From NCBI RefSeq assembly GCF_000699445.3, contig NC_067198.1, forward strand, positions 2,237,301 to 2,301,300: a stretch of DNA of 64,000 bases, in the 5' to 3' direction. This document shows, piece after piece, positions 4,299 through 52,300 of the stretch. Both the position numbers and the translations under genes were made by a program. How positions within the stretch are numbered: position 1 is the first letter of the stretch; each line of letters starts with the position of its first letter. The DNA is from Schistosoma haematobium. Taxonomy: Eukaryota; Platyhelminthes; Trematoda; Strigeidida; Schistosomatidae. Below the pieces are notes generated by a model. The model had not been told where the DNA came from. It searched no databases and saw nothing but the letters and a program-made list of their open reading frames with translations.

Positions 4299-4336
<38 letters not shown>

Positions 4337-16372: not shown

Positions 16373-16382
16373 TTTCACTTAC

Positions 16383-22300: not shown

Positions 22301-25300
22301 AAATTTTCAAAATAAAGTTTTTCAATTTCTAATTGTGTATCATTATTGAATTTCTTTTGTATTTGTTTTTCTTCTTTTTCTTCTTTTTCTTTGACTTCTT
22401 CTTGTTCATGATGTCTATTTAGTCTTATATTATATAATAGATGAGATAATCGATTTATTTCTGATTTAGCAATAAGAAGTTGATGTTCAAGATCAATTTG
22501 TTGAGTTTTATTAGATATTGATTGTTGTGATATAAATTGTGGATAAATTCTATCAGAATGATGATCAGATAACAAATCACCAGAAGCGCTCACATCATGA
22601 TCATGATCATTATCATCGGTACCATTCATTTGATTAATGTGAGGATATTGTGCTTTTAACATGTAATTGTAAACATCAGGATGTTGGATAGAAGAAATAC
22701 AACGAACACATAAATTACATATAAAACAACGATGACAAACGTCTTGGATTTTACATAAACTACAGGAAGATAGACAACCGGATAACAGTAATTCATGTAG
22801 ATTACTGAAATATGTCAAATTATTAGAATAATCACCAAAAATATCAACAAAATTAGAAGATTTTGAAAAAGAAACAATATCTGACAAAAGATCTATAAAA
22901 TCAGCACACAATATACGATCAAAATTGGTATTTGAAAATCTAGATAAATCCAAAAGTAAATTCACAAAACCTGAAAGCAACCTCATACATAAATTAACAA
23001 AATCCGTAGCAAATGCTAAAGACATTGAAATTCTTGAAAATTTCTGCTTAAGATCAGAAAGCTCATCATGTAAAAATATACAATGAACACCGTCAACACC
23101 AGAATTATCACAAAAACCAGGATAATCTGACAAAATAACACGACGAGAACGTAAATCAGACACCTCTTTCTTCCTCTCCAACACATCCATATTTGCACGC
23201 ATTATGTCCAAATCACGTCGTTCTGCCTCTACAGTCTCCCTCAACTCATTCACTTCGTCTCGTAAATGACGCTTCTCCTCTCTCAGATCCGCCACTTCAC
23301 TCTCCTTCACAGTCAACAAACGCCGGACATCCATCAACGAAGCATCACTCTCCTCCACCGATCTAGACAGCTTCACTATCTGTTCATAACAAGACGTCAA
23401 CTCTTCGCGCAGTTGACCAACCACATTCGACTCATCTTCACACAAACTTGAACTCACTAGCTTCTCTCTCGTCATCTCCACTGGACTCCTGGTCGACTGA
23501 TCTACGGTCGACTGATCGGTAAATCCTGAAGTTGACAATGTGTCAGTAGCCAACCAAGACACGCTGTCTGTCGCTTGAGTCTCCACACTCACAAGTCTAG
23601 TCGGAGAACCAACCGACACACTAGGCTTGTGCTCGTCGTGTATGCATTCTGAGGAGTAGTCGCTCCAACCGTCAACAACCATGCAATTCGACTCGTCGTC
23701 CTCTGCATCTTTACCAACGCCCACGCTCACAGTCTCTCTCGTATCACTAGTGAACCCTGATGACAAAGCTATATCACGTTCAATCATACGATCTAGCACG
23801 TCAGTTCCCATGTCACTTCTGCACACTGTTTTTGCCAACCTGGCGTCCACATCGTCTGCCATATCCAACCTACTACGCAGTTCCAACAACTCTTTCATGG
23901 CTGTGTCGCGTTCTCTCACAATTTCGTTTACGCGCGACTCCCAGTCTCGACTGGCTATCGCCAACACTGTGTTGCAATGCTCTTCCATCGATGTCTCAAG
24001 CCGACACAATTGATCCCGTAGTGCAGAACACTCGTCACGAGAAGCAGACAGTTGACTCTCCAGATCTGACATTGCGCAAACCTTCTCATGTCTATAGGCC
24101 TCCAGTTCCTCTCGGGCAGTTGACGCCTGTTCGACTGCCTGACGAAGAGCTGTTTGCATCAACACCATCTCAAATGCCTGCTTATCACACAGGTCTCGAC
24201 ACTTGCAGAGCTCCTCAGACAGCTCACGGTTCCGGTCGCACAGTCTGCTCATCTCACTTACCGAATCCCAATCTTGTCCTCTCTGCATCGACGTCACTTC
24301 ATGAGACTCTTGTAGTCGCACAAAGCTATCAAGCATAACAGTAGACTCCAAGTGTTCTGGCCATGTCATTGTCTCACACTCACGGTCCACGTGTTCAACC
24401 ACACCATGGGACAACCCTGTTGTGACGGCATCTAAACACTCCTGCACTCGTTGTTCGTGCTCTCTGCACCAATCTCCATAGTCGGAACGCAGACCTCTTA
24501 TATGGTCAACCACAAACGCCAACAGTGCTTTCGTCTTGGTCACATCATTCTCCAAGTCAGTAATCACAGTCATATAACTCTCTAGACGACGCTTCAGCGA
24601 CTCACACTCACAGATCAGGGCATTGTTCATTGACTCACATTCTTTCAGTTTCTCAGTGACTGCCTCCAGCTCGAACGATTGTGTATCCAGTGCACGCTGC
24701 AAATCCTCTCGCAACCCGTCTGATGTGCAACGGTCAGTCGACGAGCCTTCGTGTGCATAGTCGATGTCTTGCACTGGTGACGTGGATCGACCAACTGTTT
24801 CGCACAGGCGATGTGAAACCCGTTCGTACTCACTCATTCTGTTCGCCATTTCGGCGCGGTCAGCATTCGCCTCAGCATGTGCTGCACGCAATTCTCTCAC
24901 CTGCTTCAACAAGAAACCCAGTGATCCTCTGACCTCATCCATCTCCATGCACACATCGTCCAACAGTGTCACGCGCTCTGAAATCTTACTTCGTAACAAG
25001 TCTACCTCTGTCATCAGCTCTTTGTTGTGCTTCGACAGTGCATCAGCTTCGTCCGTCACTTTCATCGACCGGTCAGGCACACGAGAACTAAGAGGCATCA
25101 CATCCATTGGCTTATCTTCACACATCATAACGCCTTCCAGCTCACGCAGACGCACACTCAACTCTGTCTTGGCATTCTCAAGTTCGCAGATTCTGCTCAT
25201 GGCCTCCTTCAATCGCGCTCTTAGGCTGTCTGTATTTAACAGGGCAAGTTCGGGATCGTCATTGTCTTGTTCACTCGGCGGTTTCGTCCAACTCTGAGTG

Positions 25301-28300
25301 GCGTGAATGGGCAAGACCACTTCCTCGTTCGAAACGCCCTCAACACACAAGTCCGTAGTTTGTCTGTCCATTCGATCAGGCACAATGCCTGACACTGAGT
25401 CGCTTGCAACAGTCTCCACCAGCTGCATGTCAGGAACTCCGGCAAACACGTCTGCCTCCACTCTGTCTGTGTCATCAACCTCTGCCAACTCACGGACAAC
25501 CACATCGGGCGCCTTTCTCACAGTCTCACAAGGAATCCACCAAGTTGTCTCGTTCACCATCATACGTGACTCCGGTTCCTGCACTTCGGTCTGTTTCATG
25601 CTCAACTCGAGCTGTGAACGCTCCAGAGCCGCCAACGTCGCCGCATTTTCCTCACGCAGATGGGCAACCTCGAGCTGCAACGTCGACACCAGGTCAAAAA
25701 CTTCGTCGTCAATCTCCGTCTGCACACACTCCTCCTCCACAGCAGCAGCAGCAGCAGCAGCAACGTTCGGTCCACGACACTCCACGCACATCGTCGACAC
25801 CTCTTCCTTGCTCTCCAACACATCCATATTTGCACGCATTATGTCCAAATCACGTCGTTCTGCCTCTACAGTCTCCCTCAACTCATTCACTTCGTCTCGT
25901 AAATGACGCTTCTCCTCTCTCAGATCCGCCACTTCACTCTCCTTCACAGTCAACAAACGCCGGACATCCATCAACGAAGCATCACTCTCCTCCACCGATC
26001 TAGACAGCTTCACTATCTGTTCATAACAAGACGTCAACTCTTCGCGCAGTTGACCAACCACATTCGACTCATCTTCACACAAACTTGAACTCACTAGCTT
26101 CTCTCTCGTCATCTCCACTGGACTCCTGGTCGACTGATCTACGGTCGACTGATCGGTAAATCCTGAAGTTGACAATGTGTCAGTTGCCAACCAAGACACG
26201 CTGTCTGTCGCTTGAGTCTCCACACTCACAAGTCTAGTCGGAGAACCAACCGACACACTGGGCTTGTGCTCGTCGTGTATGCATTCTGAGGAGTAGTCGC
26301 TCCAACCGTCAACAACCATGCAATTCGACTCGTCGTCCTCTGCATCTTTACCAACGCCCACGCTCACAGTCTCTCTCGTATCACTAGTGAACCCTGATGA
26401 CAAAGCTATATCACGTTCAATCATACGATCTAGCACGTCAGTTCCCATGTCACTTCTGCACACTGTTTTTGCCAACCTGGCGTCCACATCGTCTGCCATA
26501 TCCAACCTACTACGCAGTTCCAACAACTCTTTCATGGCTGTGTCGCGTTCTCTCACAATTTCGTTTACGCGCGACTCCCAGTCTCGACTGGCTATCGCCA
26601 ACACTGTGTTGCAATGCTCTTCCATCGATGTCTCAAGCCGACACAATTGATCCCGTAGTGCAGAACACTCGTCACGAGAAGCAGACAGTTGACTCTCCAG
26701 ATCTGACATTGCGCAAACCTTCTCATGTCTATAGGCCTCCAGTTCCTCTCGGGCAGTTGACGCCTGTTCGACTGCCTGACGAAGAGCTGTTTGCATCAAC
26801 ACCATCTCAAATGCCTGCTTATCACACAGGTCTCGACACTTGCAGAGCTCCTCAGACAGCTCACGGTTCCGGTCGCACAGTCTGCTCATCTCACTTACCG
26901 AATCCCAATCTTGTCCTCTCTGCATCGACGTCACTTCATGAGACTCTTGTAGTCGCACAAAGCTATCAAGCATAACAGTAGACTCCAAGTGTTCTGGCCA
27001 TGTCATTGTCTCACACTCACGGTCCACGTGTTCAACCACACCATGGGACAACCCTGTTGTGACGGCATCTAAACACTCCTGCACTCGTTGTTCGTGCTCT
27101 CTGCACCAATCTCCATAGTCGGAACGCAGACCTCTTATATGGTCAACCACAAACGCCAACAGTGCTTTCGTCTTGGTCACATCATTCTCCAAGTCAGTAA
27201 TCACAGTCATATAACTCTCTAGACGACGCTTCAGCGACTCACACTCACAGATCAGGGCATTGTTCATTGACTCACATTCTTTCAGTTTCTCAGTGACTGC
27301 CTCCAGCTCGAACGATTGTGTATCCAGTGCACGCTGCAAATCCTCTCGCAACCCGTCTGATGTGCAACGGTCAGTCGACGAGCCTTCGTGTGCATAGTCG
27401 ATGTCTTGCACTGGTGACGTGGATCGACCAACTGTTTCGCACAGGCGATGTGAAACCCGTTCGTACTCACTCATTCTGTTCGCCATTTCGGCGCGGTCAG
27501 CATTCGCCTCAGCATGTGCTGCACGCAATTCTCTCACCTGCTTCAACAAGAAACCCAGTGATCCTCTGACCTCATCCATCTCCATGCACACATCGTCCAA
27601 CAGTGTCACGCGCTCTGAAATCTTACTTCGTAACAAGTCTACCTCTGTCATCAGCTCTTTGTTGTGCTTCGACAGTGCATCAGCTTCGTCCGTCACTTTC
27701 ATCGACCGGTCAGGCACACGAGAACTAAGAGGCATCACATCCATTGGCTTATCTTCACACATCATAACGCCTTCCAGCTCACGCAGACGCACACTCAACT
27801 CTGTCTTGGCATTCTCAAGTTCGCAGATTCTGCTCATGGCCTCCTTCAATCGCGCTCTTAGGCTGTCTGTATTTAACAGGGCAAGTTCGGGATCGTCATT
27901 GTCTTGTTCACTCGGCGGTTTCGTCCAACTCTGAGTGGCGTGAATGGGCAAGACCACTTCCTCGTTCGAAACGCCCTCAACACACAAGTCCGTAGTTTGT
28001 CTGTCCATTCGATCAGGCACAATGCCTGACACTGAGTCGCTTGCAACAGTCTCCACCAGCTGCATGTCAGGAACTCCGGCAAACACGTCTGCCTCCACTC
28101 TGTCTGTGTCATCAACCTCTGCCAACTCACGGACAACCACATCGGGCGCCTTTCTCACAGTCTCACAAGGAATCCACCAAGTTGTCTCGTTCACCATCAT
28201 ACGTGACTCCGGTTCCTGCACTTCGGTCTGTTTCATGCTCAACTCGAGCTGTGAACGCTCCAGAGCCGCCAACGTCGCCGCATTTTCCTCACGCAGATGG

Positions 28301-31300
28301 GCAACCTCGAGCTGCAACGTCGACACCAGGTCAAAAACTTCGTCGTCAATCTCCGTCTGCACACACTCCTCCTCCACAGCAGCAGCAGCAGCAGCAGCAA
28401 CGTTCGGTCCACGACACTCCACGCACATCGTCGACACCTCTTCCTTGCTCTCCAACACATCCATATTTGCACGCATTATGTCCAAATCACGTCGTTCTGC
28501 CTCTACAGTCTCCCTCAACTCATTCACTTCGTCTCGTAAATGACGCTTCTCCTCTCTCAGATCCGCCACTTCACTCTCCTTCACAGTCAACAAACGCCGG
28601 ACATCCATCAACGAAGCATCACTCTCCTCCACCGATCTAGACAGCTTCACTATCTGTTCATAACAAGACGTCAACTCTTCGCGCAGTTGACCAACCACAT
28701 TCGACTCATCTTCACACAAACTTGAACTCACTAGCTTCTCTCTCGTCATCTCCACTGGACTCCTGGTCGACTGATCTACGGTCGACTGATCGGTAAATCC
28801 TGAAGTTGACAATGTGTCAGTTGCCAACCAAGACACGCTGTCTGTCGCTTGAGTCTCCACACTCACAAGTCTAGTCGGAGAACCAACCGACACACTGGGC
28901 TTGTGCTCGTCGTGTATGCATTCTGAGGAGTAGTCGCTCCAACCGTCAACAACCATGCAATTCGACTCGTCGTCCTCTGCATCTTTACCAACGCCCACGC
29001 TCACAGTCTCTCTCGTATCACTAGTGAACCCTGATGACAAAGCTATATCACGTTCAATCATACGATCTAGCACGTCAGTTCCCATGTCACTTCTGCACAC
29101 TGTTTTTGCCAACCTGGCGTCCACATCGTCTGCCATATCCAACCTACTACGCAGTTCCAACAACTCTTTCATGGCTGTGTCGCGTTCTCTCACAATTTCG
29201 TTTACGCGCGACTCCCAGTCTCGACTGGCTATCGCCAACACTGTGTTGCAATGCTCTTCCATCGATGTCTCAAGCCGACACAATTGATCCCGTAGTGCAG
29301 AACACTCGTCACGAGAAGCAGACAGTTGACTCTCCAGATCTGACATTGCGCAAACCTTCTCATGTCTATAGGCCTCCAGTTCCTCTCGGGCAGTTGACGC
29401 CTGTTCGACTGCCTGACGAAGAGCTGTTTGCATCAACACCATCTCAAATGCCTGCTTATCACACAGGTCTCGACACTTGCAGAGCTCCTCAGACAGCTCA
29501 CGGTTCCGGTCGCACAGTCTGCTCATCTCACTTACCGAATCCCAATCTTGTCCTCTCTGCATCGACGTCACTTCATGAGACTCTTGTAGTCGCACAAAGC
29601 TATCAAGCATAACAGTAGACTCCAAGTGTTCTGGCCATGTCATTGTCTCACACTCACGGTCCACGTGTTCAACCACACCATGGGACAACCCTGTTGTGAC
29701 GGCATCTAAACACTCCTGCACTCGTTGTTCGTGCTCTCTGCACCAATCTCCATAGTCGGAACGCAGACCTCTTATATGGTCAACCACAAACGCCAACAGT
29801 GCTTTCGTCTTGGTCACATCATTCTCCAAGTCAGTAATCACAGTCATATAACTCTCTAGACGACGCTTCAGCGACTCACACTCACAGATCAGGGCATTGT
29901 TCATTGACTCACATTCTTTCAGTTTCTCAGTGACTGCCTCCAGCTCGAACGATTGTGTATCCAGTGCACGCTGCAAATCCTCTCGCAACCCGTCTGATGT
30001 GCAACGGTCAGTCGACGAGCCTTCGTGTGCATAGTCGATGTCTTGCACTGGTGACGTGGATCGACCAACTGTTTCGCACAGGCGATGTGAAACCCGTTCG
30101 TACTCACTCATTCTGTTCGCCATTTCGGCGCGGTCAGCATTCGCCTCAGCATGTGCTGCACGCAATTCTCTCACCTGCTTCAACAAGAAACCCAGTGATC
30201 CTCTGACCTCATCCATCTCCATGCACACATCGTCCAACAGTGTCACGCGCTCTGAAATCTTACTTCGTAACAAGTCTACCTCTGTCATCAGCTCTTTGTT
30301 GTGCTTCGACAGTGCATCAGCTTCGTCCGTCACTTTCATCGACCGGTCAGGCACACGAGAACTAAGAGGCATCACATCCATTGGCTTATCTTCACACATC
30401 ATAACGCCTTCCAGCTCACGCAGACGCACACTCAACTCTGTCTTGGCATTCTCAAGTTCGCAGATTCTGCTCATGGCCTCCTTCAATCGCGCTCTTAGGC
30501 TGTCTGTATTTAACAGGGCAAGTTCGGGATCGTCATTGTCTTGTTCACTCGGCGGTTTCGTCCAACTCTGAGTGGCGTGAATGGGCAAGACCACTTCCTC
30601 GTTCGAAACGCCCTCAACACACAAGTCCGTAGTTTGTCTGTCCATTCGATCAGGCACAATGCCTGACACTGAGTCGCTTGCAACAGTCTCCACCAGCTGC
30701 ATGTCAGGAACTCCGGCAAACACGTCTGCCTCCACTCTGTCTGTGTCATCAACCTCTACCAACTCACGGACAACCACATCGGGCGCCTTTCTCACAGTCT
30801 CACAAGGAATCCACCAAGTTGTCTCGTTCACCATCATACGTGACTCCGGTTCCTGCACTTCGGTCTGTTTCATGCTCAACTCGAGCTGTGAACGCTCCAG
30901 AGCCGCCAACGTCGCCGCATTTTCCTCACGCAGATGGGCAACCTCGAGCTGCAACGTCGACACCAGGTCAAAAACTTCGTCGTCAATCTCCGTCTGCACA
31001 CACTCCTCCTCCACAGCAGCAGCAGCAGCAGCAGCAACGTTCGGTCCACGACACTCCACGCACATCGTCGACACCTCTTCCTTGCTCTCCAACACATCCA
31101 TATTTGCACGCATTATGTCCAAATCACGTCGTTCTGCCTCTACAGTCTCCCTCAACTCATTCACTTCGTCTCGTAAATGACGCTTCTCCTCTCTCAGATC
31201 CGCCACTTCACTCTCCTTCACAGTCAACAAACGCCGGACATCCATCAACGAAGCATCACTCTCCTCCACCGATCTAGACAGCTTCACTATCTGTTCATAA

Positions 31301-34300
31301 CAAGACGTCAACTCTTCGCGCAGTTGACCAACCACATTCGACTCATCTTCACACAAACTTGAACTCACTAGCTTCTCTCTCGTCATCTCCACTGGACTCC
31401 TGGTCGACTGATCTACGGTCGACTGATCGGTAAATCCTGAAGTTGACAATGTGTCAGTTGCCAACCAAGACACGCTGTCTGTCGCTTGAGTCTCCACACT
31501 CACAAGTCTAGTCGGAGAACCAACCGACACACTGGGCTTGTGCTCGTCGTGTATGCATTCTGAGGAGTAGTCGCTCCAACCGTCAACAACCATGCAATTC
31601 GACTCGTCGTCCTCTGCATCTTTACCAACGCCCACGCTCACAGTCTCTCTCGTATCACTAGTGAACCCTGATGACAAAGCTATATCACGTTCAATCATAC
31701 GATCTAGCACGTCAGTTCCCATGTCACTTCTGCACACTGTTTTTGCCAACCTGGCGTCCACATCGTCTGCCATATCCAACCTACTACGCAGTTCCAACAA
31801 CTCTTTCATGGCTGTGTCGTGTTCTCTCACAATTTCGTTTACGCGCGACTCCCAGTCTCGACTGGCTATCGCCAACACTGTGTTGCAATGCTCTTCCATC
31901 GATGTCTCAAGCCGACACAATTGATCCCGTAGTGCAGAACACTCGTCACGAGAAGCAGACAGTTGACTCTCCAGATCTGACATTGCGCAAACCTTCTCAT
32001 GTCTATAGGCCTCCAGTTCCTCTCGGGCAGTTGACGCCTGTTCGACTGCCTGACGAAGAGCTGTTTGCATCAACACCATCTCAAATGCCTGCTTATCACA
32101 CAGGTCTCGACACTTGCAGAGCTCCTCAGACAGCTCACGGTTCCGGTCGCACAGTCTGCTCATCTCACTTACCGAATCCCAATCTTGTCCTCTCTGCATC
32201 GACGTCACTTCATGAGACTCTTGTAGTCGCACAAAGCTATCAAGCATAACAGTAGACTCCAAGTGTTCTGGCCATGTCATTGTCTCACACTCACGGTCCA
32301 CGTGTTCAACCACACCATGGGACAACCCTGTTGTGACGGCATCTAAACACTCCTGCACTCGTTGTTCGTGCTCTCTGCACCAATCTCCATAGTCGGAACG
32401 CAGACCTCTTATATGGTCAACCACAAACGCCAACAGTGCTTTCGTCTTGGTCACATCATTCTCCAAGTCAGTAATCACAGTCATATAACTCTCTAGACGA
32501 CGCTTCAGCGACTCACACTCACAGATCAGGGCATTGTTCATTGACTCACATTCTTTCAGTTTCTCAGTGACTGCCTCCAGCTCGAACGATTGTGTATCCA
32601 GTGCACGCTGCAAATCCTCTCGCAACCCGTCTGATGTGCAACGGTCAGTCGACGAGCCTTCGTGTGCATAGTCGATGTCTTGCACTGGTGACGTGGATCG
32701 ACCAACTGTTTCGCACAGGCGATGTGAAACCCGTTCGTACTCACTCATTCTGTTCGCCATTTCGGCGCGGTCAGCATTCGCCTCAGCATGTGCTGCACGC
32801 AATTCTCTCACCTGCTTCAACAAGAAACCCAGTGATCCTCTGACCTCATCCATCTCCATGCACACATCGTCCAACAGTGTCACGCGCTCTGAAATCTTAC
32901 TTCGTAACAAGTCTACCTCTGTCATCAGCTCTTTGTTGTGCTTCGACAGTGCATCAGCTTCGTCCGTCACTTTCATCGACCGGTCAGGCACACGAGAACT
33001 AAGAGGCATCACATCCATTGGCTTATCTTCACACATCATAACGCCTTCCAGCTCACGCAGACGCACACTCAACTCTGTCTTGGCATTCTCAAGTTCGCAG
33101 ATTCTGCTCATGGCCTCCTTCAATCGCGCTCTTAGGCTGTCTGTATTTAACAGGGCAAGTTCGGGATCGTCATTGTCTTGTTCACTCGGCGGTTTCGTCC
33201 AACTCTGAGTGGCGTGAATGGGCAAGACCACTTCCTCGTTCGAAACGCCCTCAACACACAAGTCCGTAGTTTGTCTGTCCATTCGATCAGGCACAATGCC
33301 TGACACTGAGTCGCTTGCAACAGTCTCCACCAGCTGCATGTCAGGAACTCCGGCAAACACGTCTGCCTCCACTCTGTCTGTGTCATCAACCTCTACCAAC
33401 TCACGGACAACCACATCGGGCGCCTTTCTCACAGTCTCACAAGGAATCCACCAAGTTGTCTCGTTCACCATCATACGTGACTCCGGTTCCTGCACTTCGG
33501 TCTGTTTCATGCTCAACTCGAGCTGTGAACGCTCCAGAGCCGCCAACGTCGCCGCATTTTCCTCACGCAGATGGGCAACCTCGAGCTGCAACGTCGACAC
33601 CAGGTCAAAAACTTCGTCGTCAATCTCCGTCTGCACACACTCCTCCTCCACAGCAGCAGCAGCAGCAGCAGCAACGTTCGGTCCACGACACTCCACGCAC
33701 ATCGTCGACACCTCTTCCTTGCTCTCCAACACATCCATATTTGCACGCATTATGTCCAAATCACGTCGTTCTGCCTCTACAGTCTCCCTCAACTCATTCA
33801 CTTCGTCTCGTAAATGACGCTTCTCCTCTCTCAGATCCGCCACTTCACTCTCCTTCACAGTCAACAAACGCCGGACATCCATCAACGAAGCATCACTCTC
33901 CTCCACCGATCTAGACAGCTTCACTATCTGTTCATAACAAGACGTCAACTCTTCGCGCAGTTGACCAACCACATTCGACTCATCTTCACACAAACTTGAA
34001 CTCACTAGCTTCTCTCTCGTCATCTCCACTGGACTCCTGGTCGACTGATCTACGGTCGACTGATCGGTAAATCCTGAAGTTGACAATGTGTCAGTTGCCA
34101 ACCAAGACACGCTGTCTGTCGCTTGAGTCTCCACACTCACAAGTCTAGTCGGAGAACCAACCGACACACTGGGCTTGTGCTCGTCGTGTATGCATTCTGA
34201 GGAGTAGTCGCTCCAACCGTCAACAACCATGCAATTCGACTCGTCGTCCTCTGCATCTTTACCAACGCCCACGCTCACAGTCTCTCTCGTATCACTAGTG

Positions 34301-37300
34301 AACCCTGATGACAAAGCTATATCACGTTCAATCATACGATCTAGCACGTCAGTTCCCATGTCACTTCTGCACACTGTTTTTGCCAACCTGGCGTCCACAT
34401 CGTCTGCCATATCCAACCTACTACGCAGTTCCAACAACTCTTTCATGGCTGTGTCGCGTTCTCTCACAATTTCGTTTACGCGCGACTCCCAGTCTCGACT
34501 GGCTATCGCCAACACTGTGTTGCAATGCTCTTCCATCGATGTCTCAAGCCGACACAATTGATCCCGTAGTGCAGAACACTCGTCACGAGAAGCAGACAGT
34601 TGACTCTCCAGATCTGACATTGCGCAAACCTTCTCATGTCTATAGGCCTCCAGTTCCTCTCGGGCAGTTGACGCCTGTTCGACTGCCTGACGAAGAGCTG
34701 TTTGCATCAACACCATCTCAAATGCCTGCTTATCACACAGGTCTCGACACTTGCAGAGCTCCTCAGACAGCTCACGGTTCCGGTCGCACAGTCTGCTCAT
34801 CTCACTTACCGAATCCCAATCTTGTCCTCTCTGCATCGACGTCACTTCATGAGACTCTTGTAGTCGCACAAAGCTATCAAGCATAACAGTAGACTCCAAG
34901 TGTTCTGGCCATGTCATTGTCTCACACTCACGGTCCACGTGTTCAACCACACCATGGGACAACCCTGTTGTGACGGCATCTAAACACTCCTGCACTCGTT
35001 GTTCGTGCTCTCTGCACCAATCTCCATAGTCGGAACGCAGACCTCTTATATGGTCAACCACAAACGCCAACAGTGCTTTCGTCTTGGTCACATCATTCTC
35101 CAAGTCAGTAATCACAGTCATATAACTCTCTAGACGACGCTTCAGCGACTCACACTCACAGATCAGGGCATTGTTCATTGACTCACATTCTTTCAGTTTC
35201 TCAGTGACTGCCTCCAGCTCGAACGATTGTGTATCCAGTGCACGCTGCAAATCCTCTCGCAACCCGTCTGATGTGCAACGGTCAGTCGACGAGCCTTCGT
35301 GTGCATAGTCGATGTCTTGCACTGGTGACGTGGATCGACCAACTGTTTCGCACAGGCGATGTGAAACCCGTTCGTACTCACTCATTCTGTTCGCCATTTC
35401 GGCGCGGTCAGCATTCGCCTCAGCATGTGCTGCACGCAATTCTCTCACCTGCTTCAACAAGAAACCCAGTGATCCTCTGACCTCATCCATCTCCATGCAC
35501 ACATCGTCCAACAGTGTCACGCGCTCTGAAATCTTACTTCGTAACAAGTCTACCTCTGTCATCAGCTCTTTGTTGTGCTTCGACAGTGCATCAGCTTCGT
35601 CCGTCACTTTCATCGACCGGTCAGGCACACGAGAACTAAGAGGCATCACATCCATTGGCTTATCTTCACACATCATAACGCCTTCCAGCTCACGCAGACG
35701 CACACTCAACTCTGTCTTGGCATTCTCAAGTTCGCAGATTCTGCTCATGGCCTCCTTCAATCGCGCTCTTAGGCTGTCTGTATTTAACAGGGCAAGTTCG
35801 GGATCGTCATTGTCTTGTTCACTCGGCGGTTTCGTCCAACTCTGAGTGGCGTGAATGGGCAAGACCACTTCCTCGTTCGAAACGCCCTCAACACACAAGT
35901 CCGTAGTTTGTCTGTCCATTCGATCAGGCACAATGCCTGACACTGAGTCGCTTGCAACAGTCTCCACCAGCTGCATGTCAGGAACTCCGGCAAACACGTC
36001 TGCCTCCACTCTGTCTGTGTCATCAACCTCTACCAACTCACGGACAACCACATCGGGCGCCTTTCTCACAGTCTCACAAGGAATCCACCAAGTTGTCTCG
36101 TTCACCATCATACGTGACTCCGGTTCCTGCACTTCGGTCTGTTTCATGCTCAACTCGAGCTGTGAACGCTCCAGAGCCGCCAACGTCGCCGCATTTTCCT
36201 CACGCAGATGGGCAACCTCGAGCTGCAACGTCGACACCAGGTCAAAAACTTCGTCGTCAATCTCCGTCTGCACACACTCCTCCTCCACAGCAGCAGCAGC
36301 AGCAACGTTCGGTCCACGACACTCCACGCACATCGTCGACACCTCTTCCTTGCTCTCCAACACATCCATATTTGCACGCATTATGTCCAAATCACGTCGT
36401 TCTGCCTCTACAGTCTCCCTCAACTCATTCACTTCGTCTCGTAAATGACGCTTCTCCTCTCTCAGATCCGCCACTTCACTCTCCTTCACAGTCAACAAAC
36501 GCCGGACATCCATCAACGAAGCATCACTCTCCTCCACCGATCTAGACAGCTTCACTATCTGTTCATAACAAGACGTCAACTCTTCGCGCAGTTGACCAAC
36601 CACATTCGACTCATCTTCACACAAACTTGAACTCACTAGCTTCTCTCTCGTCATCTCCACTGGACTCCTGGTCGACTGATCTACGGTCGACTGATCGGTA
36701 AATCCTGAAGTTGACAATGTGTCAGTTGCCAACCAAGACACGCTGTCTGTCGCTTGAGTCTCCACACTCACAAGTCTAGTCGGAGAACCAACCGACACAC
36801 TGGGCTTGTGCTCGTCGTGTATGCATTCTGAGGAGTAGTCGCTCCAACCGTCAACAACCATGCAATTCGACTCGTCGTCCTCTGCATCTTTACCAACGCC
36901 CACGCTCACAGTCTCTCTCGTATCACTAGTGAACCCTGATGACAAAGCTATATCACGTTCAATCATACGATCTAGCACGTCAGTTCCCATGTCACTTCTG
37001 CACACTGTTTTTGCCAACCTGGCGTCCACATCGTCTGCCATATCCAACCTACTACGCAGTTCCAACAACTCTTTCATGGCTGTGTCGCGTTCTCTCACAA
37101 TTTCGTTTACGCGCGACTCCCAGTCTCGACTGGCTATCGCCAACACTGTGTTGCAATGCTCTTCCATCGATGTCTCAAGCCGACACACTTGATCCCGTAG
37201 TGCAGAACACTCGTCACGAGAAGCAGACAGTTGACTCTCCAGATCTGACATTGCGCAAACCTTCTCATGTCTATAGGCCTCCAGTTCCTCTCGGGCAGTT

Positions 37301-40300: not shown

Positions 40301-43300
40301 AGACCTCTTATATGGTCAACCACAAACGCCAACAGTGCTTTCGTCTTGGTCACATCATTCTCCAAGTCAGTAATCACAGTCATATAACTCTCTAGACGAC
40401 GCTTCAGCGACTCACACTCACAGATCAGGGCATTGTTCATTGACTCACATTCTTTCAGTTTCTCAGTGACTGCCTCCAGCTCGAACGATTGTGTATCCAG
40501 TGCACGCTGCAAATCCTCTCGCAACCCGTCTGATGTGCAACGGTCAGTCGACGAGCCTTCGTGTGCATAGTCGATGTCTTGCACTGGTGACGTGGATCGA
40601 CCAACTGTTTCGCACAGGCGATGTGAAACCCGTTCGTACTCACTCATTCTGTTCGCCATTTCGGCGCGGTCAGCATTCGCCTCAGCATGTGCTGCACGCA
40701 ATTCTCTCACCTGCTTCAACAAGAAACCCAGTGATCCTCTGACCTCATCCATCTCCATGCACACATCGTCCAACAGTGTCACGCGCTCTGAAATCTTACT
40801 TCGTAACAAGTCTACCTCTGTCATCAGCTCTTTGTTGTGCTTCGACAGTGCATCAGCTTCGTCCGTCACTTTCATCGACCGGTCAGGCACACGAGAACTA
40901 AGAGGCATCACATCCACTGGCTTATCTTCACACATCATAACGCCTTCCAGCTCACGCAGACGCACACTCAACTCTGTCTTGGCATTCTCAAGTTCGCAGA
41001 TTCTGCTCATGGCCTCCTTCAATCGCGCTCTTAGGCTGTCTGTATTTAACAGGGCAAGTTCGGGATCGTCATTGTCTTGTTCACTCGGCGGTTTCGTCCA
41101 ACTCTGAGTGGCGTGAATGGGCAAGACCACTTCCTCGTTCGAAACGCCCTCAACACACAAGTCCGTAGTTTGTCTGTCCATTCGATCAGGCACAATGCCT
41201 GACACTGAGTCGCTTGCAACAGTCTCCACCAGCTGCATGTCAGGAACTCCGGCAAACACGTCTGCCTCCACTCTGTCTGTGTCATCAACCTCTGCCAACT
41301 CACGGACAACCACATCGGGCGCCTTTCTCACAGTCTCACAAGGAATCCACCAAGTTGTCTCGTTCACCATCATACGTGACTCCGGTTCCTGCACTTCGGT
41401 CTGTTTCATGCTCAACTCGAGCTGTGAACGCTCCAGAGCCGCCAACGTCGCCGCATTTTCCTCACGCAGATGGGCAACCTCGAGCTGCAACGTCGACACC
41501 AGGTCAAAAACTTCGTCGTCAATCTCCGTCTGCACACACTCCTCCTCCACAGCAGCAGCAGCAGCAACGTTCGGTCCACGACACTCCACGCACATCGTCG
41601 ACACCTCTTCCTTGCTCTCCAACACATCCATATTTGCACGCATTATGTCCAAATCACGTCGTTCTGCCTCTACAGTCTCCCTCAACTCATTCACTTCGTC
41701 TCGTAAATGACGCTTCTCCTCTCTCAGATCCGCCACTTCACTCTCCTTCACAGTCAACAAACGCCGGACATCCATCAACGAAGCATCACTCTCCTCCACC
41801 GATCTAGACAGCTTCACTATCTGTTCATAACAAGACGTCAACTCTTCGCGCAGTTGACCAACCACATTCGACTCATCTTCACACAAACTTGAACTCACTA
41901 GCTTCTCTCTCGTCATCTCCACTGGACTCCTGGTCGACTGATCTACGGTCGACTGATCGGTAAATCCTGAAGTTGACAATGTGTCAGTTGCCAACCAAGA
42001 CACGCTGTCTGTCGCTTGAGTCTCCACACTCACAAGTCTAGTCGGAGAACCAACCGACACACTGGGCTTGTGCTCGTCGTGTATGCATTCTGAGGAGTAG
42101 TCGCTCCAACCGTCAACAACCATGCAATTCGACTCGTCGTCCTCTGCATCTTTACCAACGCCCACGCTCACAGTCTCTCTCGTATCACTAGTGAACCCTG
42201 ATGACAAAGCTATATCACGTTCAATCATACGATCTAGCACGTCAGTTCCCATGTCACTTCTGCACACTGTTTTTGCCAACCTGGCGTCCACATCGTCTGC
42301 CATATCCAACCTACTACGCAGTTCCAACAACTCTTTCATGGCTGTGTCGCGTTCTCTCACAATTTCGTTTACGCGCGACTCCCAGTCTCGACTGGCTATC
42401 GCCAACACTGTGTTGCAATGCTCTTCCATCGATGTCTCAAGCCGACACACTTGATCCCGTAGTGCAGAACACTCGTCACGAGAAGCAGACAGTTGACTCT
42501 CCAGATCTGACATTGCGCAAACCTTCTCATGTCTATAGGCCTCCAGTTCCTCTCGGGCAGTTGACGCCTGTTCGACTGCCTGACGAAGAGCTGTTTGCAT
42601 CAACACCATCTCAAATGCCTGCTTATCACACAGGTCTCGACACTTGCAGAGCTCCTCAGACAGCTCACGGTTCCGGTCGCACAGTCTGCTCATCTCACTT
42701 ACCGAATCCCAATCTTGTCCTCTCTGCATCGACGTCACTTCATGAGACTCTTGTAGTCGCACAAAGCTATCAAGCATAACAGTAGACTCCAAGTGTTCTG
42801 GCCATGTCATTGTCTCACACTCACGGTCCACGTGTTCAACCACACCATGGGACAACCCTGTTGTGACGGCATCTAAACACTCCTGCACTCGTTGTTCGTG
42901 CTCTCTGCACCAATCTCCATAGTCGGAACGCAGACCTCTTATATGGTCAACCACAAACGCCAACAGTGCTTTCGTCTTGGTCACATCATTCTCCAAGTCA
43001 GTAATCACAGTCATATAACTCTCTAGACGACGCTTCAGCGACTCACACTCACAGATCAGGGCATTGTTCATTGACTCACATTCTTTCAGTTTCTCAGTGA
43101 CTGCCTCCAGCTCGAACGATTGTGTATCCAGTGCACGCTGCAAATCCTCTCGCAACCCGTCTGATGTGCAACGGTCAGTCGACGAGCCTTCGTGTGCATA
43201 GTCGATGTCTTGCACTGGTGACGTGGATCGACCAACTGTTTCGCACAGGCGATGTGAAACCCGTTCGTACTCACTCATTCTGTTCGCCATTTCGGCGCGG

Positions 43301-46300
43301 TCAGCATTCGCCTCAGCATGTGCTGCACGCAATTCTCTCACCTGCTTCAACAAGAAACCCAGTGATCCTCTGACCTCATCCATCTCCATGCACACATCGT
43401 CCAACAGTGTCACGTGCTCTGAAATCTTACTTCGTAACAAGTCTACCTCTGTCATCAGCTCTTTGTTGTGCTTCGACAGTGCATCAGCTTCGTCCGTCAC
43501 TTTCATCGACCGGTCAGGCACACGAGAACTAAGAGGCATCACATCCACTGGCTTATCTTCACACATCATAACGCCTTCCAGCTCACGCAGACGCACACTC
43601 AACTCTGTCTTGGCATTCTCAAGTTCGCAGATTCTGCTCATGGCCTCCTTCAATCGCGCTCTTAGGCTGTCTGTATTTAACAGGGCAAGTTCGGGATCGT
43701 CATTGTCTTGTTCACTCGGCGGTTTCGTCCAACTCTGAGTGGCGTGAATGGGCAAGACCACTTCCTCGTTCGAAACGCCCTCAACACACAAGTCCGTAGT
43801 TTGTCTGTCCATTCGATCAGGCACAATGCCTGACACTGAGTCGCTTGCAACAGTCTCCACCAGCTGCATGTCAGGAACTCCGGCAAACACGTCTGCCTCC
43901 ACTCTGTCTGTGTCATCAACCTCTGCCAACTCACGGACAACCACATCGGGCGCCTTTCTCACAGTCTCACAAGGAATCCACCAAGTTGTCTCGTTCACCA
44001 TCATACGTGACTCCGGTTCCTGCACTTCGGTCTGTTTCATGCTCAACTCGAGCTGTGAACGCTCCAGAGCCGCCAACGTCGCCGCATTTTCCTCACGCAG
44101 ATGGGCAACCTCGAGCTGCAACGTCGACACCAGGTCAAAAACTTCGTCGTCAATCTCCGTCTGCACACACTCCTCCTCCACAGCAGCAGCAGCAGCAACG
44201 TTCGGTCCACGACACTCCACGCACATCGTCGACACCTCTTCCTTGCTCTCCAACACATCCATATTTGCACGCATTATGTCCAAATCACGTCGTTCTGCCT
44301 CTACAGTCTCCCTCAACTCATTCACTTCGTCTCGTAAATGACGCTTCTCCTCTCTCAGATCCGCCACTTCACTCTCCTTCACAGTCAACAAACGCCGGAC
44401 ATCCATCAACGAAGCATCACTCTCCTCCACCGATCTAGACAGCTTCACTATCTGTTCATAACAAGACGTCAACTCTTCGCGCAGTTGACCAACCACATTC
44501 GACTCATCTTCACACAAACTTGAACTCACTAGCTTCTCTCTCGTCATCTCCACTGGACTCCTGGTCGACTGATCTACGGTCGACTGATCGGTAAATCCTG
44601 AAGTTGACAATGTGTCAGTTGCCAACCAAGACACGCTGTCTGTCGCTTGAGTCTCCACACTCACAAGTCTAGTCGGAGAACCAACCGACACACTGGGCTT
44701 GTGCTCGTCGTGTATGCATTCTGAGGAGTAGTCGCTCCAACCGTCAACAACCATGCAATTCGACTCGTCGTCCTCTGCATCTTTACCAACGCCCACGCTC
44801 ACAGTCTCTCTCGTATCACTAGTGAACCCTGATGACAAAGCTATATCACGTTCAATCATACGATCTAGCACGTCAGTTCCCATGTCACTTCTGCACACTG
44901 TTTTTGCCAACCTGGCGTCCACATCGTCTGCCATATCCAACCTACTACGCAGTTCCAACAACTCTTTCATGGCTGTGTCGCGTTCTCTCACAATTTCGTT
45001 TACGCGCGACTCCCAGTCTCGACTGGCTATCGCCAACACTGTGTTGCAATGCTCTTCCATCGATGTCTCAAGCCGACACACTTGATCCCGTAGTGCAGAA
45101 CACTCGTCACGAGAAGCAGACAGTTGACTCTCCAGATCTGACATTGCGCAAACCTTCTCATGTCTATAGGCCTCCAGTTCCTCTCGGGCAGTTGACGCCT
45201 GTTCGACTGCCTGACGAAGAGCTGTTTGCATCAACACCATCTCAAATGCCTGCTTATCACACAGGTCTCGACACTTGCAGAGCTCCTCAGACAGCTCACG
45301 GTTCCGGTCGCACAGTCTGCTCATCTCACTTACCGAATCCCAATCTTGTCCTCTCTGCATCGACGTCACTTCATGAGACTCTTGTAGTCGCACAAAGCTA
45401 TCAAGCATAACAGTAGACTCCAAGTGTTCTGGCCATGTCATTGTCTCACACTCACGGTCCACGTGTTCAACCACACCATGGGACAACCCTGTTGTGACGG
45501 CATCTAAACACTCCTGCACTCGTTGTTCGTGCTCTCTGCACCAATCTCCATAGTCGGAACGCAGACCTCTTATATGGTCAACCACAAACGCCAACAGTGC
45601 TTTCGTCTTGGTCACATCATTCTCCAAGTCAGTAATCACAGTCATATAACTCTCTAGACGACGCTTCAGCGACTCACACTCACAGATCAGGGCATTGTTC
45701 ATTGACTCACATTCTTTCAGTTTCTCAGTGACTGCCTCCAGCTCGAACGATTGTGTATCCAGTGCACGCTGCAAATCCTCTCGCAACCCGTCTGATGTGC
45801 AACGGTCAGTCGACGAGCCTTCGTGTGCATAGTCGATGTCTTGCACTGGTGACGTGGATCGACCAACTGTTTCGCACAGGCGATGTGAAACCCGTTCGTA
45901 CTCACTCATTCTGTTCGCCATTTCGGCGCGGTCAGCATTCGCCTCAGCATGTGCTGCACGCAATTCTCTCACCTGCTTCAACAAGAAACCCAGTGATCCT
46001 CTGACCTCATCCATCTCCATGCACACATCGTCCAACAGTGTCACGCGCTCTGAAATCTTACTTCGTAACAAGTCTACCTCTGTCATCAGCTCTTTGTTGT
46101 GCTTCGACAGTGCATCAGCTTCGTCCGTCACTTTCATCGACCGGTCAGGCACACGAGAACTAAGAGGCATCACATCCATTGGCTTATCTTCACACATCAT
46201 AACGCCTTCCAGCTCACGCAGACGCACACTCAACTCTGTCTTGGCATTCTCAAGTTCGCAGATTCTGCTCATGGCCTCCTTCAATCGCGCTCTTAGGCTG

Positions 46301-49300
46301 TCTGTATTTAACAGGGCAAGTTCGGGATCGTCATTGTCTTGTTCACTCGGCGGTTTCGTCCAACTCTGAGTGGCGTGAATGGGCAAGACCACTTCCTCGT
46401 TCGAAACGCCCTCAACACACAAGTCCGTAGTTTGTCTGTCCATTCGATCAGGCACAATGCCTGACACTGAGTCGCTTGCAACAGTCTCCACCAGCTGCAT
46501 GTCAGGAACTCCGGCAAACACGTCTGCCTCCACTCTGTCTGTGTCATCAACCTCTGCCAACTCACGGACAACCACATCGGGCGCCTTTCTCACAGTCTCA
46601 CAAGGAATCCACCAAGTTGTCTCGTTCACCATCATACGTGACTCCGGTTCCTGCACTTCGGTCTGTTTCATGCTCAACTCGAGCTGTGAACGCTCCAGAG
46701 CCGCCAACGTCGCCGCATTTTCCTCACGCAGATGGGCAACCTCGAGCTGCAACGTCGACACCAGGTCAAAAACTTCGTCGTCAATCTCCGTCTGCACACA
46801 TTCCTCCTCCACAGCAGCAGCAGCAGCAGCAGCAACGTTCGGTCCACGACACTCCACGCACATCGTCGACACCTCTTCCTTGCTCTCCAACACATCCATA
46901 TTTGCACGCATTATGTCCAAATCACGTCGTTCTGCCTCTACAGTCTCCCTCAACTCATTCACTTCGTCTCGTAAATGACGCTTCTCCTCTCTCAGATCCG
47001 CCACTTCACTCTCCTTCACAGTCAACAAACGCCGGACATCCATCAACGAAGCATCACTCTCCTCCACCGATCTAGACAGCTTCACTATCTGTTCATAACA
47101 AGACGTCAACTCTTCGCGCAGTTGACCAACCACATTCGACTCATCTTCACACAAACTTGAACTCACTAGCTTCTCTCTCGTCATCTCCACTGGACTCCTG
47201 GTCGACTGATCTACGGTCGACTGATCGGTAAATCCTGAAGTTGACAATGTGTCAGTTGCCAACCAAGACACGCTGTCTGTCGCTTGAGTCTCCACACTCA
47301 CAAGTCTAGTCGGAGAACCAACCGACACACTAGGCTTGTGCTCGTCGTGTATGCATTCTGAGGAGTAGTCGCTCCAACCGTCAACAACCATGCAATTCGA
47401 CTCGTCGTCCTCTGCATCTTTACCAACGCCCACGCTCACAGTCTCTCTCGTATCACTAGTGAACCCTGATGACAAAGCTATATCACGTTCAATCATACGA
47501 TCTAGCACGTCAGTTCCCATGTCACTTCTGCACACTGTTTTTGCCAACCTGGCGTCCACATCGTCTGCCATATCCAACCTACTACGCAGTTCCAACAACT
47601 CTTTCATGGCTGTGTCGCGTTCTCTCACAATTTCGTTTACGCGCGACTCCCAGTCTCGACTGGCTATCGCCAACACTGTGTTGCAATGCTCTTCCATCGA
47701 TGTCTCAAGCCGACACACTTGATCCCGTAGTGCAGAACACTCGTCACGAGAAGCAGACAGTTGACTCTCCAGATCTGACATTGCGCAAACCTTCTCATGT
47801 CTATAGGCCTCCAGTTCCTCTCGGGCAGGTGACGCCTGTTCGACTGCCTGACGAAGAGCTGTTTGCATCAACACCATCTCAAATGCCTGCTTATCACACA
47901 GGTCTCGACACTTGCAGAGCTCCTCAGACAGCTCACGGTTCCGGTCGCACAGTCTGCTCATCTCACTTACCGAATCCCAATCTTGTCCTCTCTGCATCGA
48001 CGTCACTTCATGAGACTCTTGTAGTCGCACAAAGCTATCAAGCATAACAGTAGACTCCAAGTGTTCTGGCCATGTCATTGTCTCACACTCACGGTCCACG
48101 TGTTCAACCACACCATGGGACAACCCTGTTGTGACGGCATCTAAACACTCCTGCACTCGTTGTTCGTGCTCTCTGCACCAATCTCCATAGTCGGAACGCA
48201 GACCTCTTATATGGTCAACCACAAACGCCAACAGTGCTTTCGTCTTGGTCACATCATTCTCCAAGTCAGTAATCACAGTCATATAACTCTCTAGACGACG
48301 CTTCAGCGACTCACACTCACAGATCAGGGCATTGTTCATTGACTCACATTCTTTCAGTTTCTCAGTGACTGCCTCCAGCTCGAACGATTGTGTATCCAGT
48401 GCACGCTGCAAATCCTCTCGCAACCCGTCTGATGTGCAACGGTCAGTCGACGAGCCTTCGTGTGCATAGTCGATGTCTTGCACTGGTGACGTGGATCGAC
48501 CAACTGTTTCGCACAGGCGATGTGAAACCCGTTCGTACTCACTCATTCTGTTCGCCATTTCGGCGCGGTCAGCATTCGCCTCAGCATGTGCTGCACGCAA
48601 TTCTCTCACCTGCTTCAACAGGAGGCTAAGCGATCGTGTGTCGTCATTAGTGTGTGTGTTATTATTTCTTGAAATTATTCTGAATTGTGTATTTGTACTT
48701 TTTGTTGATTTTTTTATAGTTTTTTCATTGGCGTTATCCCGTTTTGACGCATCGGTCGGTTGATATTGCTGTTGTGAAAATTCGTTTTCTAATTTTTGAT
48801 CGCACTCTATAATAATATCGTTTTGGTTTCTTTTAATGATGATTTCATCTTCTTTCTTGCTTTTCAGATTTTCTCCTTGGAATTTTTCCAGATGATTTCT
48901 CGTTTCTTCGTTAATTGTTATACTTGTTTCTTCTGAGTACCCTGTAACACTATATGCTTTTGTGTTCGAAGACCACTCCATATGCTTGTCTGTGTTGTTT
49001 ACGCAGTCTTTCACAAGCCTTTCTGATTTTATACTATATGGTTCGACGGTTTCTAGTTCTTTACTTGATAAACTGCGCGACATTACGGGAATATCTGATG
49101 CTGATTCAGCGTATGTCATACTGCAGGGTTGTCTAGGTGGTGGTAGTATCAAAGAACTGATGAACATTTTTTCGTCTTTAATATCCGGAGGCATTCTCCA
49201 AATGTGCGAAATTTTATCTTGTGAGAAGTCATCATACGAAACTATGGTAACTTCTTCACAGTGACAAGCATGTGATTCACTGGCATCAATCCGGTTTTGT

Positions 49301-52300
49301 TGAAGTGACTTATCCATTTTTGAAGATGAATATGTGGCAAATGTAAACTTAGATTCATTTGCATTAGAATCAACCATCATCGGGTCGACAACGGATGGAC
49401 TTAGCATCTTGAAACACGAAGCATCTAAAACTATCGACGATATGTATGACTTATTTCCATGAGCGAAGTTATCATTGAGTTTATTGCCTACCTCACTATC
49501 ACTGGCTACAAGAAATTGGCCTGAATTAAGATCACTTTCGCAAGTCCCTTGGATTTCAGAGACCAGCGTACCACTTGAATAATTACGATCACTTTCTCTA
49601 AAATTAGAAAGATTACCAGAAGTTTCCACCAACATACTATTGACTTCTAAACGAGAATTGAAATGTCTAACAGGTGGAGGCAAATTAAAGCTCAAACGTT
49701 TCTTTGATGAATCACTCTCACAGATCAGGGCATTGTTCATTGACTCACATTCTTTCAGTTTCTCAGTGACTGCCTCCAGCTCGAACGATTGTGTATCCAG
49801 TGCACGCTGCAAATCCTCTCGCAACCCGTCTGATGTGCAACGGTCAGTCGACGAGCCTTCGTGTGCATAGTCGATGTCTTGCACTGGTGACGTGGATCGA
49901 CCAACTGTTTCGCACAGGCGATGTGAAACCCGTTCGTACTCACTCATTCTGTTCGCCATTTCGGCGCGGTCAGCATTCGCCTCAGCATGTGCTGCACGCA
50001 ATTCTCTCACCTGCTTCAACAAGAAACCCAGTGATCCTCTGACCTCATCCATCTCCATGCACACATCGTCCAACAGTGTCACGCGCTCTGAAATCTTACT
50101 TCGTAACAAGTCTACCTCTGTCATCAGCTCTTTGTTGTGCTTCGACAGTGCATCAGCTTCGTCCGTCACTTTCATCGACCGGTCAGGCACACGAGAACTA
50201 AGAGGCATCACATCCATTGGCTTATCTTCACACATCATAACGCCTTCCAGCTCACGCAGACGCACACTCAACTCTGTCTTGGCATTCTCAAGTTCGCAGA
50301 TTCTGCTCATGGCCTCCTTCAATCGCGCTCTTAGGCTGTCTGTATTTAACAGGGCAAGTTCGGGATCGTCATTGTCTTGTTCACTCGGCGGTTTCGTCCA
50401 ACTCTGAGTGGCGTGAATGGGCAAGACCACTTCCTCGTTCGAAACGCCCTCAACACACAAGTCCGTAGTTTGTCTGTCCATTCGATCAGGCACAATGCCT
50501 GACACTGAGTCGCTTGCAACAGTCTCCACCAGCTGCATGTCAGGAACTCCGGCAAACACGTCTGCCTCCACTCTGTCTGTGTCATCAACCTCTGCCAACT
50601 CACGGACAACCACATCGGGCGCCTTTCTCACAGTCTCACAGGGAATCCACCAAGTTGTCTCGTTCACCATCATACGTGACTCCGGTTCCTGCACTTCGGT
50701 CTGTTTCATGATCAACTCGAGCTGTGAACGCTCCAGAGCCGCCAACGTCGCCGCATTTTCCTCACGCAGATGGGCAACCTCGAGCTGCAACGTCGACACC
50801 AGGTCAAAAACTTCGTCGTCAATCTCCGTCTGCACACACTCCTCCTCCACAGCAGCAGCAGCAGCAGCAACGTTCGGTCCACGACACTCCACGCACATCG
50901 TCGACACCTCTTCCTTGCTCTCCAACACATCCATATTTGCACGCATTATGTCCAAATCACGTCGTTCTGCCTCTACAGTCTCCCTCAACTCATTCACTTC
51001 GTCTCGTAAATGACGCTTCTCCTCTCTCAGATCCGCCACTTCACTCTCCTTCACAGTCAACAAACGCCGGACATCCATCAACGAAGCATCACTCTCCTCC
51101 ACCGATCTAGACAGCTTCACTATCTGTTCATAACAAGACGTCAACTCTTCGCGCAGTTGACCAACCACATTCGACTCATCTTCACACAAACTTGAACTCA
51201 CTAGCTTCTCTCTCGTCATCTCCACGGTAAATTCTGAAGTTGTTAGTGTGTCTTTATCTAATGTGGATTTTGTTTCTTCAATTTTGGCTATTGTTAGATA
51301 TTCTTTCTCTTCTTTTGACATTATAGTTGTTTGTTCAGTCTCTGTCTGATTAGTTAATTTTAGTTCGTTTATTATGTTTTTATTTGGATTTGTAGATGAA
51401 TCAATAAGTGAATTTGGATATTGATTATGGTGATATATATAACATTCACTTTTTACCTTTTCATCATTTCTCTCGTAGCATTTATTTTCATACGTCTCGT
51501 CGCTATTATGTGGGACAATGTTATGTCCTGTTGAAATAGCTTTTAATTTATAGTCATAATCTCTTAATTCTTTGTTCAAATCTTCTATTTGTGATGCCTG
51601 CATAGCTATAAGTTTGCAGTGTTTTGTTTTTTCACTCAAGAGTTTATCTACTAGATGCTGACACAAAGATAGCTCTTCGTATATAACATGTAGAGCAGAC
51701 TGAAGCTTTTCTGTCAAGTTCAAATCCGTGATTTCAGGTTTGTCATCTAATAATCTGTCAATTTCTTGGTTGAATGAATAATTATCCTGTTCAATTTGTT
51801 CAACAAAAGTATCTTGCTTTCTAATGATTTGTTGTTGTAGAATTTCCTGTAATTCAGTTAGGCGAATAAGAGATTGTTCAGCTGAATAAAGTGGATATTT
51901 CTGATCATATTCCTCTGTATTTACTAGTAAACGTTTTGCACTATGAATCGGAAAACTCTTATCATCAGTGAGGTAGTGATCAGGTGATTCATATTCAATT
52001 TGATTATCTTGATCAGGTATATATTGATTTAAATTTGATATAATTGTACTGACTTGATTTAAAAATGCTTTAGTCAAAGACTGTACATTGGATAATCCTC
52101 CATTATCTAGAATACATTGTAAACTAGTAAAATGATTATTAGATATAGCTAATTTAATATGATTTTCAATATCTAATAAATTGTTATGCAACATTTCTAC
52201 TTCTCTTTCAGATTTCTGTAACTTTGATTGTAAAATTTCATAATCTTGTTTTAACTGAGATAATTCAAATGAACAGTTATCTGTTGTTAATTCAGTATTT

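Follow-up and report, generated by a model that had tools for sequence, protein, structure and literature searches.

Coding sequences built from tandem units and kept uniform by exchange between copies are already known. Here we describe an array of 2.6-kb units inside one exon of a gene of the trematode Schistosoma haematobium. The array lies in a 64,000-nucleotide stretch of contig NC_067198.1 (positions 2,237,301 to 2,301,300, forward strand; assembly GCF_000699445.3), which is called the window below and numbered from its first base. The coding sequence of epiplakin (EPPK1) is built from repeats and lies wholly in one exon, and its repeat number varies among, and probably within, species (PMC8782857). 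The schistosome array is likewise confined to a single exon; however, its unit has 879 residues and is modeled mostly as long helices, its gene has further exons, and no plakin repeat domain was found in Pfam scans of the unit, the flanks and five orthologues. Filaggrin (FLG) also carries tandem coding units in one exon, with copy number differing between and within species, but its repeats are highly diverse and were judged by the authors to evolve by birth and death (PMC5225520), whereas the schistosome copies are near-uniform within species. Closer in taxonomy, the SmPoMuc mucins of Schistosoma mansoni contain coding tandem repeats in concerted evolution, which the authors ascribed to gene conversion. 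The repeat of that multigene family comprises a short exon together with its introns (~1 kb), and conversion was said to be restricted to intronic sequence (PMC2576457). The present repeats appear to evolve in concert as well; in contrast, their 2.6-kb unit is contained entirely in a single exon of a single gene, and no signal peptide was seen by eye. Long-lasting conversion between mammalian genes concerns pairs, in which homogenised stretches have a higher G+C content than diverging stretches, and such a rise, third codon positions included, is an accepted sign of sequence under conversion (PMC2720389). In the window DNA the G+C content of third codon positions (GC3) is similarly raised in homogenised relative to linked non-homogenised sequence, although here about ten copies share one exon.

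The schistosome locus is distinctive in combining 2.6-kb units in a 33-kb exon, an array that seems to predate the divergence of two genera, and a GC3 that changes three- to fourfold inside the exon. No earlier description of the gene was found in the open-licence literature, among the matches listed. We consider it probable that this giant, coiled-coil-prone gene of the schistosome family carries an ancestral tandem array within its coding sequence, and that the array is subject to unequal crossing-over and GC-biased conversion and encodes a conserved rod-like unit.

Copies and order in the array

A single frame on the minus strand stays free of stops over 11,128 codons, from window position 52746 to 19360, and includes the giant exon. 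From the N- to the C-terminal side, the exon consists of a flank, codons 1-504 of unit 1, a 366-codon insert, a second stretch of unit 1 that resumes at codon 404, nine full units, a 102-codon partial unit, and a second flank. The features are given below with their basis; each unit starts at its higher coordinate.

19390..52701, minus strand, giant exon of 33,312 bp and 11,104 codons (AG acceptor and GT donor; borders match the spliced orthologue models P0007 and P0012)
51226..52701, minus strand, unique AT-rich N-side flank of the exon, 492 codons, GC3 0.17 (98.6% to S. haematobium record P0007)
49717..51225, minus strand, first part of split unit 1, unit codons 1-504 (alignment to unit 10)
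48619..49716, minus strand, insert in the split unit, 366 codons, GC3 ~0.30 (profile comparison with the unit; record matches)
47191..48618, minus strand, second part of split unit 1, unit codons 404-879 (alignment to unit 10)
44554..47190, minus strand, full unit 2, 879 codons (unit alignment, as for units 3 to 10)
41923..44553, minus strand, full unit 3, 877 codons
39292..41922, minus strand, full unit 4, 877 codons
36661..39291, minus strand, full unit 5, 877 codons
34030..36660, minus strand, full unit 6, 877 codons
31393..34029, minus strand, full unit 7, 879 codons
28756..31392, minus strand, full unit 8, 879 codons
26119..28755, minus strand, full unit 9, 879 codons
23482..26118, minus strand, full unit 10, 879 codons
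23176..23481, minus strand, partial unit 11, which has codons 1-102 without a difference from unit 10 and then ends (alignment to unit 10)
19390..23175, minus strand, unique AT-rich C-side flank of the exon, GC3 0.14 (protein comparison and GC3 profile)
19835..20950, minus strand, second coding tandem repeat of short period (207 bp) in the same exon, GC3 0.15 (repeat search)

A sequence-only reading of this DNA had proposed near-identical, in-frame tandem units (nine full, one split, one partial) spaced by multiples of three, and frame and unit alignment confirmed both points. Its unit length of 879 residues applies to five of the nine full units, while the other four have 877 codons. It had also described the copies as differing mostly by single bases and whole triplets, in agreement with the 8 single-base variable sites and one 6-base alanine indel detected among the full units (pairwise 0-5 substitutions in 2,631 bases). 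The spread among the window copies is 0.12% per site, the alanine indel being counted once. With that indel, eight of the nine full units are distinct sequences (seven by substitutions alone); units 4 and 5 are identical. The comparison of synonymous with nonsynonymous differences that the same reading had proposed gave 3 versus 5 on 584 versus 2,053 sites, from eight differences only. Relative to unit 10, the first half of the split copy has 2 differing codons and one alanine fewer, the second half has 3 differing codons, and the partial copy has none; about 100 unit codons are doubled in the split copy. Such a pattern, a 2.6-kb periodicity at ~99.9% identity, is not due to chance.

The difference between units rises with their distance in the array, from a mean of 1.75 between neighbours to 4.0-4.25 at four or more steps (Mantel r 0.55, p 0.007), and the likeness of neighbouring copies points to local unequal exchange. 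This neighbour structure and the distinctness of eight of the nine units also argue against an assembly artefact, in which the assembler would have multiplied one or two real units. Records of S. guineensis, S. rodhaini and Trichobilharzia szidati, on other contigs, likewise carry three full tandem units, and we regard an artefact as very improbable. A search of the unit against its own genome (a 400-Mb assembly of 163 contigs; 13 candidates scored) returned 12 matches, all within the array: the nine full units, the two split parts and the partial copy.

It was also considered that the flanks or the insert might be decayed old units. This was not supported, as the unit profile matched the N flank, the C flank and the insert no better than 10 column-shuffled controls each; an equally weak match was obtained with the C-terminal exons, in a comparison without shuffled control. 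Counterparts of the insert were detected in S. haematobium (98-100%; two records at 98.4-100%) and S. margrebowiei (80%), and S. rodhaini P0011 contains a 48-residue match at 50%.

Relatives and the age of the array

Protein searches returned 13 records from S. haematobium, S. guineensis, S. bovis, S. margrebowiei, S. spindalis, S. rodhaini, S. turkestanicum and T. szidati. The records were clustered at 90% identity, and further species may be hidden behind them. By reading, 10 of the 13 start inside the array or the insert; the gene models at this locus are therefore unreliable, and copy numbers for the relatives are lower bounds. Colinear arrays of the same period (866-882 residues) were identified in five species: the window, S. 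guineensis, S. rodhaini, S. bovis and the bird fluke T. szidati. Within each of these five species the full copies are near-uniform, and between species they differ. Identity to unit 10 is 99.4-100% in the window; the three copies each of S. guineensis and S. rodhaini are 99.66-99.77% alike and those of T. szidati 99.65-100%, and S. bovis shows 1 substitution in 832 residues. The within-species figure for S. margrebowiei was left out, two slices having overlapped in the record. Mean unit identity between the five species is 53-98%, and all listed pairs, partial copies included, give 49-98%. In a maximum-likelihood tree of 18 units (15 different), those of the window, S. guineensis and S. rodhaini each formed one group and both T. 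szidati rows were identical; the tree needs 4 changes of species label, the minimum possible, and none of 200 shuffles was as low. By these comparisons, copies in the five species with enough sequence are more alike within than between species, the pattern of concerted evolution.

Several observations weigh against such a reading. Partial copies at the array ends are less alike (99.1% in S. guineensis, 97% in S. rodhaini, and 94.5% in S. spindalis, where by eye all of the difference comes from the array edge after an identical stretch), and the window group in the tree has a support of just 89/88. The BLAST alignment of T. szidati ends at unit residue 852 and restarts at 15, so that 34-41 junction residues are the least conserved, with 21-33% identity in the 40-residue blocks flanking the junction. 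The shared junction in that species consequently depends on the colinear order and the equal period. For S. rodhaini and S. turkestanicum, alignments with the unit of the window reach within 1-2 residues of the junction on both sides.

These data bear on whether each species could have amplified a single-copy unit independently and recently, the arrays being simply young and lacking long-term homogenisation. Near identity within species and the low spread in the window are what a burst would produce, the T. szidati junction itself is poorly aligned, and repeated renewal through unequal exchange comes close to the same view. Independent bursts would nevertheless be expected to leave different borders, whereas the S. 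rodhaini and S. turkestanicum alignments reach the junction on both sides, and the shared cyclic order and near-equal period in T. szidati, S. rodhaini, S. guineensis, S. bovis and the window require at least two tandem copies in the ancestor. We therefore judge independent amplification to be unlikely. A tandem state predating the split of Schistosoma and Trichobilharzia is strongly indicated by the period and cyclic order common to both genera, and the copies have most likely been renewed in each lineage since then. The sequence-only reading had left the choice between a very young array and one that is continuously homogenised. The latter is favoured by the colinear order and same period in Trichobilharzia and by the uniformity of copies within five species. 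Turnover would proceed through unequal crossing-over between copies, as suggested by the greater likeness of neighbours and by the different unit positions at which the array ends across species: ~110 in the S. haematobium group, ~642 in S. rodhaini P0004 and S. spindalis, ~315 in S. turkestanicum, and ~757 in T. szidati.

Comparison of the window with its relatives gave higher identity in the unit than in the flanks for S. guineensis (98% vs 89.6%), S. bovis (98.3% vs 86.6%), S. spindalis (92% vs 61%), S. turkestanicum (68% vs 43%) and S. rodhaini (88% vs 63% in the N flank and 61% in the C flank, 254 aligned residues); C-flank identities are best local alignments of 229-700 residues. The unit probably evolves under purifying selection, since it changes more slowly than the flanks between most species. 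Two comparisons run the other way. Between the window and S. haematobium P0007, identity is lower in the split unit (93%, with a 21-residue gap) than in the flanks (98.6-99.8%), and between S. guineensis and T. szidati one stretch of a C-terminal exon is 57% identical against 53% for the unit. Record P0007 combines window-like flanks with S. bovis-like residues at unit positions 93, 193 and 301 and the 21-residue gap (relative to window 49717-51225). This mixed pattern could reflect introgression, or an old polymorphism carried by array turnover.

Base composition across the giant exon

GC3 was measured on the window DNA, and other species were assessed through an amino-acid proxy. The nine full units have a GC3 of 0.54-0.55, compared with 0.17 in the N flank, 0.14 in the C flank, 0.30 in the insert and 0.12-0.14 in three other exons of the gene. 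The shift is present within synonymous classes: at fourfold-degenerate sites G+C occupies 187 of 392 positions in unit 10 versus 57 of 480 in the flanks (p 2e-32), and at twofold-degenerate sites both C (0.47 vs 0.10-0.18 in NNY codons) and G (0.65 vs 0.13-0.21 in NNR codons) are raised. On the C side the change spans ~100 codons. The 207-bp repeat of the same exon, which is less uniform, shows no rise (55 of 372 third positions). Among kinase frames taken as genomic background (usable at 22 of the 30 loci fetched, of 139 matches in all), the median GC3 is 0.31 and the range 0.12-0.43; eight full-length actin frames range from 0.15 to 0.49, and six identical actin-half frames have 0.39. The array exceeds every one of these background frames, and its flanks lie close to the lower end of the range. 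In all eight species compared, the amino-acid proxy (GC-coded over AT-coded residues) is higher in units, at 1.3-2.4, than in flanks, at 0.22-0.55; the raised GC state therefore appears to be old.

Gene conversion biased to G and C, acting alongside crossing-over, would account for the GC3 step from ~0.14-0.17 to 0.54. With the flanks as mutational baseline, an equilibrium model gives a scaled conversion bias of ~1.9; with the kinase median it is ~1.0 by hand. Against biased conversion stand the following. The N-side edge is less sharp, the last ~240 flank codons already having a GC3 of 0.22-0.27. Genes of single-copy type also attain high GC3, as the actins show. The differences among copies comprise 7 GC-to-AT, 3 AT-to-GC and 1 neutral change (polarised by hand, a small number), which fits AT-biased mutation. 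G greatly exceeds C on the coding strand at fourfold sites (140 vs 47), contrary to what strand-symmetric biased conversion predicts; this excess is unexplained by bias alone.

The last point could be understood if the step were due to selection acting on codon choice or on coiled-coil residues and not to conversion, as codon preference could yield G over C, and actin frames of up to 0.49 fit such selection as well. However, the flanks at GC3 0.14-0.17 belong to the same exon and messenger RNA and hence are equally expressed, the shift occurs inside twofold and fourfold synonymous classes, and the less uniform 207-bp repeat does not share it. Selection is accordingly the less likely cause, though it retains appreciable weight. 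Returning to biased conversion, the GC3 gradient in the N flank could be spill-over of conversion, or something else. The equal transcript and chromosomal place on the two sides of each edge make this exon an unusually clean setting in which to measure biased conversion in a flatworm. A more far-reaching proposal can be held only tentatively, at somewhat below even chances: that strong GC-biased conversion reshaped the base composition of one exon block, and in part its amino-acid composition, throughout the lifetime of both genera, with copy number serving as the length ruler of a rod on the micrometre scale.

Two further observations concern composition. Values between those of the array and the outer flanks were obtained for the insert (48619-49716, GC3 0.30) and for the end of the N flank nearest the array (0.22-0.27), and G on the coding strand lies well above C throughout the array (23176-51225).

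Predicted product and neighbouring features

Residues E, L, V, S, D and R are abundant in the unit, and its heptad cover is 0.39, while none of 100 shuffles exceeded 0.23. An AlphaFold model based on nine sequences contains six long helices (residues 17-113, 138-192, 296-330, 351-444, 467-572 and 618-767), amounting to 537 residues per unit and separated by low-confidence linkers. The poor quality of the model (mean predicted local distance difference test score, pLDDT, of 54; predicted template modeling score, pTM, of 0.24) weighs against this interpretation of the product. A helix rises by 0.15 nm per residue, and from the model the predicted helix length is ~80 nm per unit, if extended, and ~0.8 micrometre for the array. 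Each unit would thus add about six long helical segments, and copy number would set the length of the rod. Judged from the model and the heptad cover, the product is probably helix-rich and coiled-coil-prone, a fibrous rod or scaffold with a length set by copy number. The array predicts a very large protein, and it is plausible, as the sequence-only reading had suggested, that copy number varies between individuals and protein length with it in steps of ~100 kDa, given that the likeness of neighbours suggests unequal exchange.

Alternatively, the product might be a polyprotein cut into 100-kDa monomers, as profilaggrin is, and not one rod. The helical blocks are separated by linkers of low confidence, and only one of the 18 prolines is located within the six long helices (17 are outside), as would suit cleavage; on the other hand, the Pfam scans made contained no processing domain, and the N terminus of P0007 is hydrophilic by eye and without a signal peptide. 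We consider processing of this kind improbable. Filaggrin and other fused-type S100 proteins carry an N-terminal S100 EF-hand domain; this domain was not found in a Pfam scan of P0007, which includes an N terminus. Scans of the unit and flanks gave matches below the curated cut-off only; precomputed Pfam accessions are listed for several of the records. The whole-protein score for DUF6678 was above the cut-off in P0012, with no single stretch passing; by reading, it lies in the C-flank minisatellite. Neither P0012 nor P0007 had a sequence match in the PDB. TQT-type core motifs, of the kind bound by LC8 (dynein light chain), number 4 per unit versus 1.9 ± 1.3 expected from shuffles, which is no clear enrichment, and 3 of the 4 sites keep the core pattern in T. 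szidati; a scaffold for LC8 is thus a lead only.

Besides the giant exon, the window contains further exons of its gene, one upstream and five downstream, the extents of the downstream exons being taken from protein matches:

55205..56809, minus strand, upstream exon (99.6-99.8% to S. haematobium P0007)
16380..16961, minus strand, next downstream exon
14226..14387, minus strand, downstream exon
10716..10847, minus strand, downstream exon
7966..8130, minus strand, downstream exon
4069..4785, minus strand, last recognised exon

Residues 1-264 of P0007 were unmatched in the window at an E value of 1e-3. By reading, the 207-bp repeat of the giant exon has undergone considerable expansion in S. guineensis P0012 and S. 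spindalis P0008.

The window contains five type I hammerhead ribozymes that exceed the Rfam gathering score, at 10142-10187 (plus), 54990-55034 (minus), 2413-2458 (plus), 11157-11202 (plus) and 54272-54316 (minus); two of the five are in the intron preceding the giant exon. Such ribozymes occur in schistosome SM-alpha-like repeats and so fit a schistosome; the protein hits point to Schistosoma, and the identities of the upstream exon and the insert agree best with S. haematobium. The intron adjoining the giant exon also contains a 336-nt inverted repeat (52895-53230 and 53319-53654; 96% complementary, 88 nt spacing), whose second arm is 83% complementary to window 12470-12715.

Other tandem arrays were observed in the same genome. 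Six tandem copies of the N-terminal half of actin (Pfam positions 3-190) lie ~3,985 bp apart in 432-residue frames at C1:22018547-22039049. The same half occurs in at least nine other places, in frames of up to 1,046 residues, as if it had been spread by a mobile element. Pieces of kinase domains are likewise found in tandem, six ~2,736 bp apart at C3:38380317-38394226 and three ~16.5 kb apart at C6:16890265-16923774.

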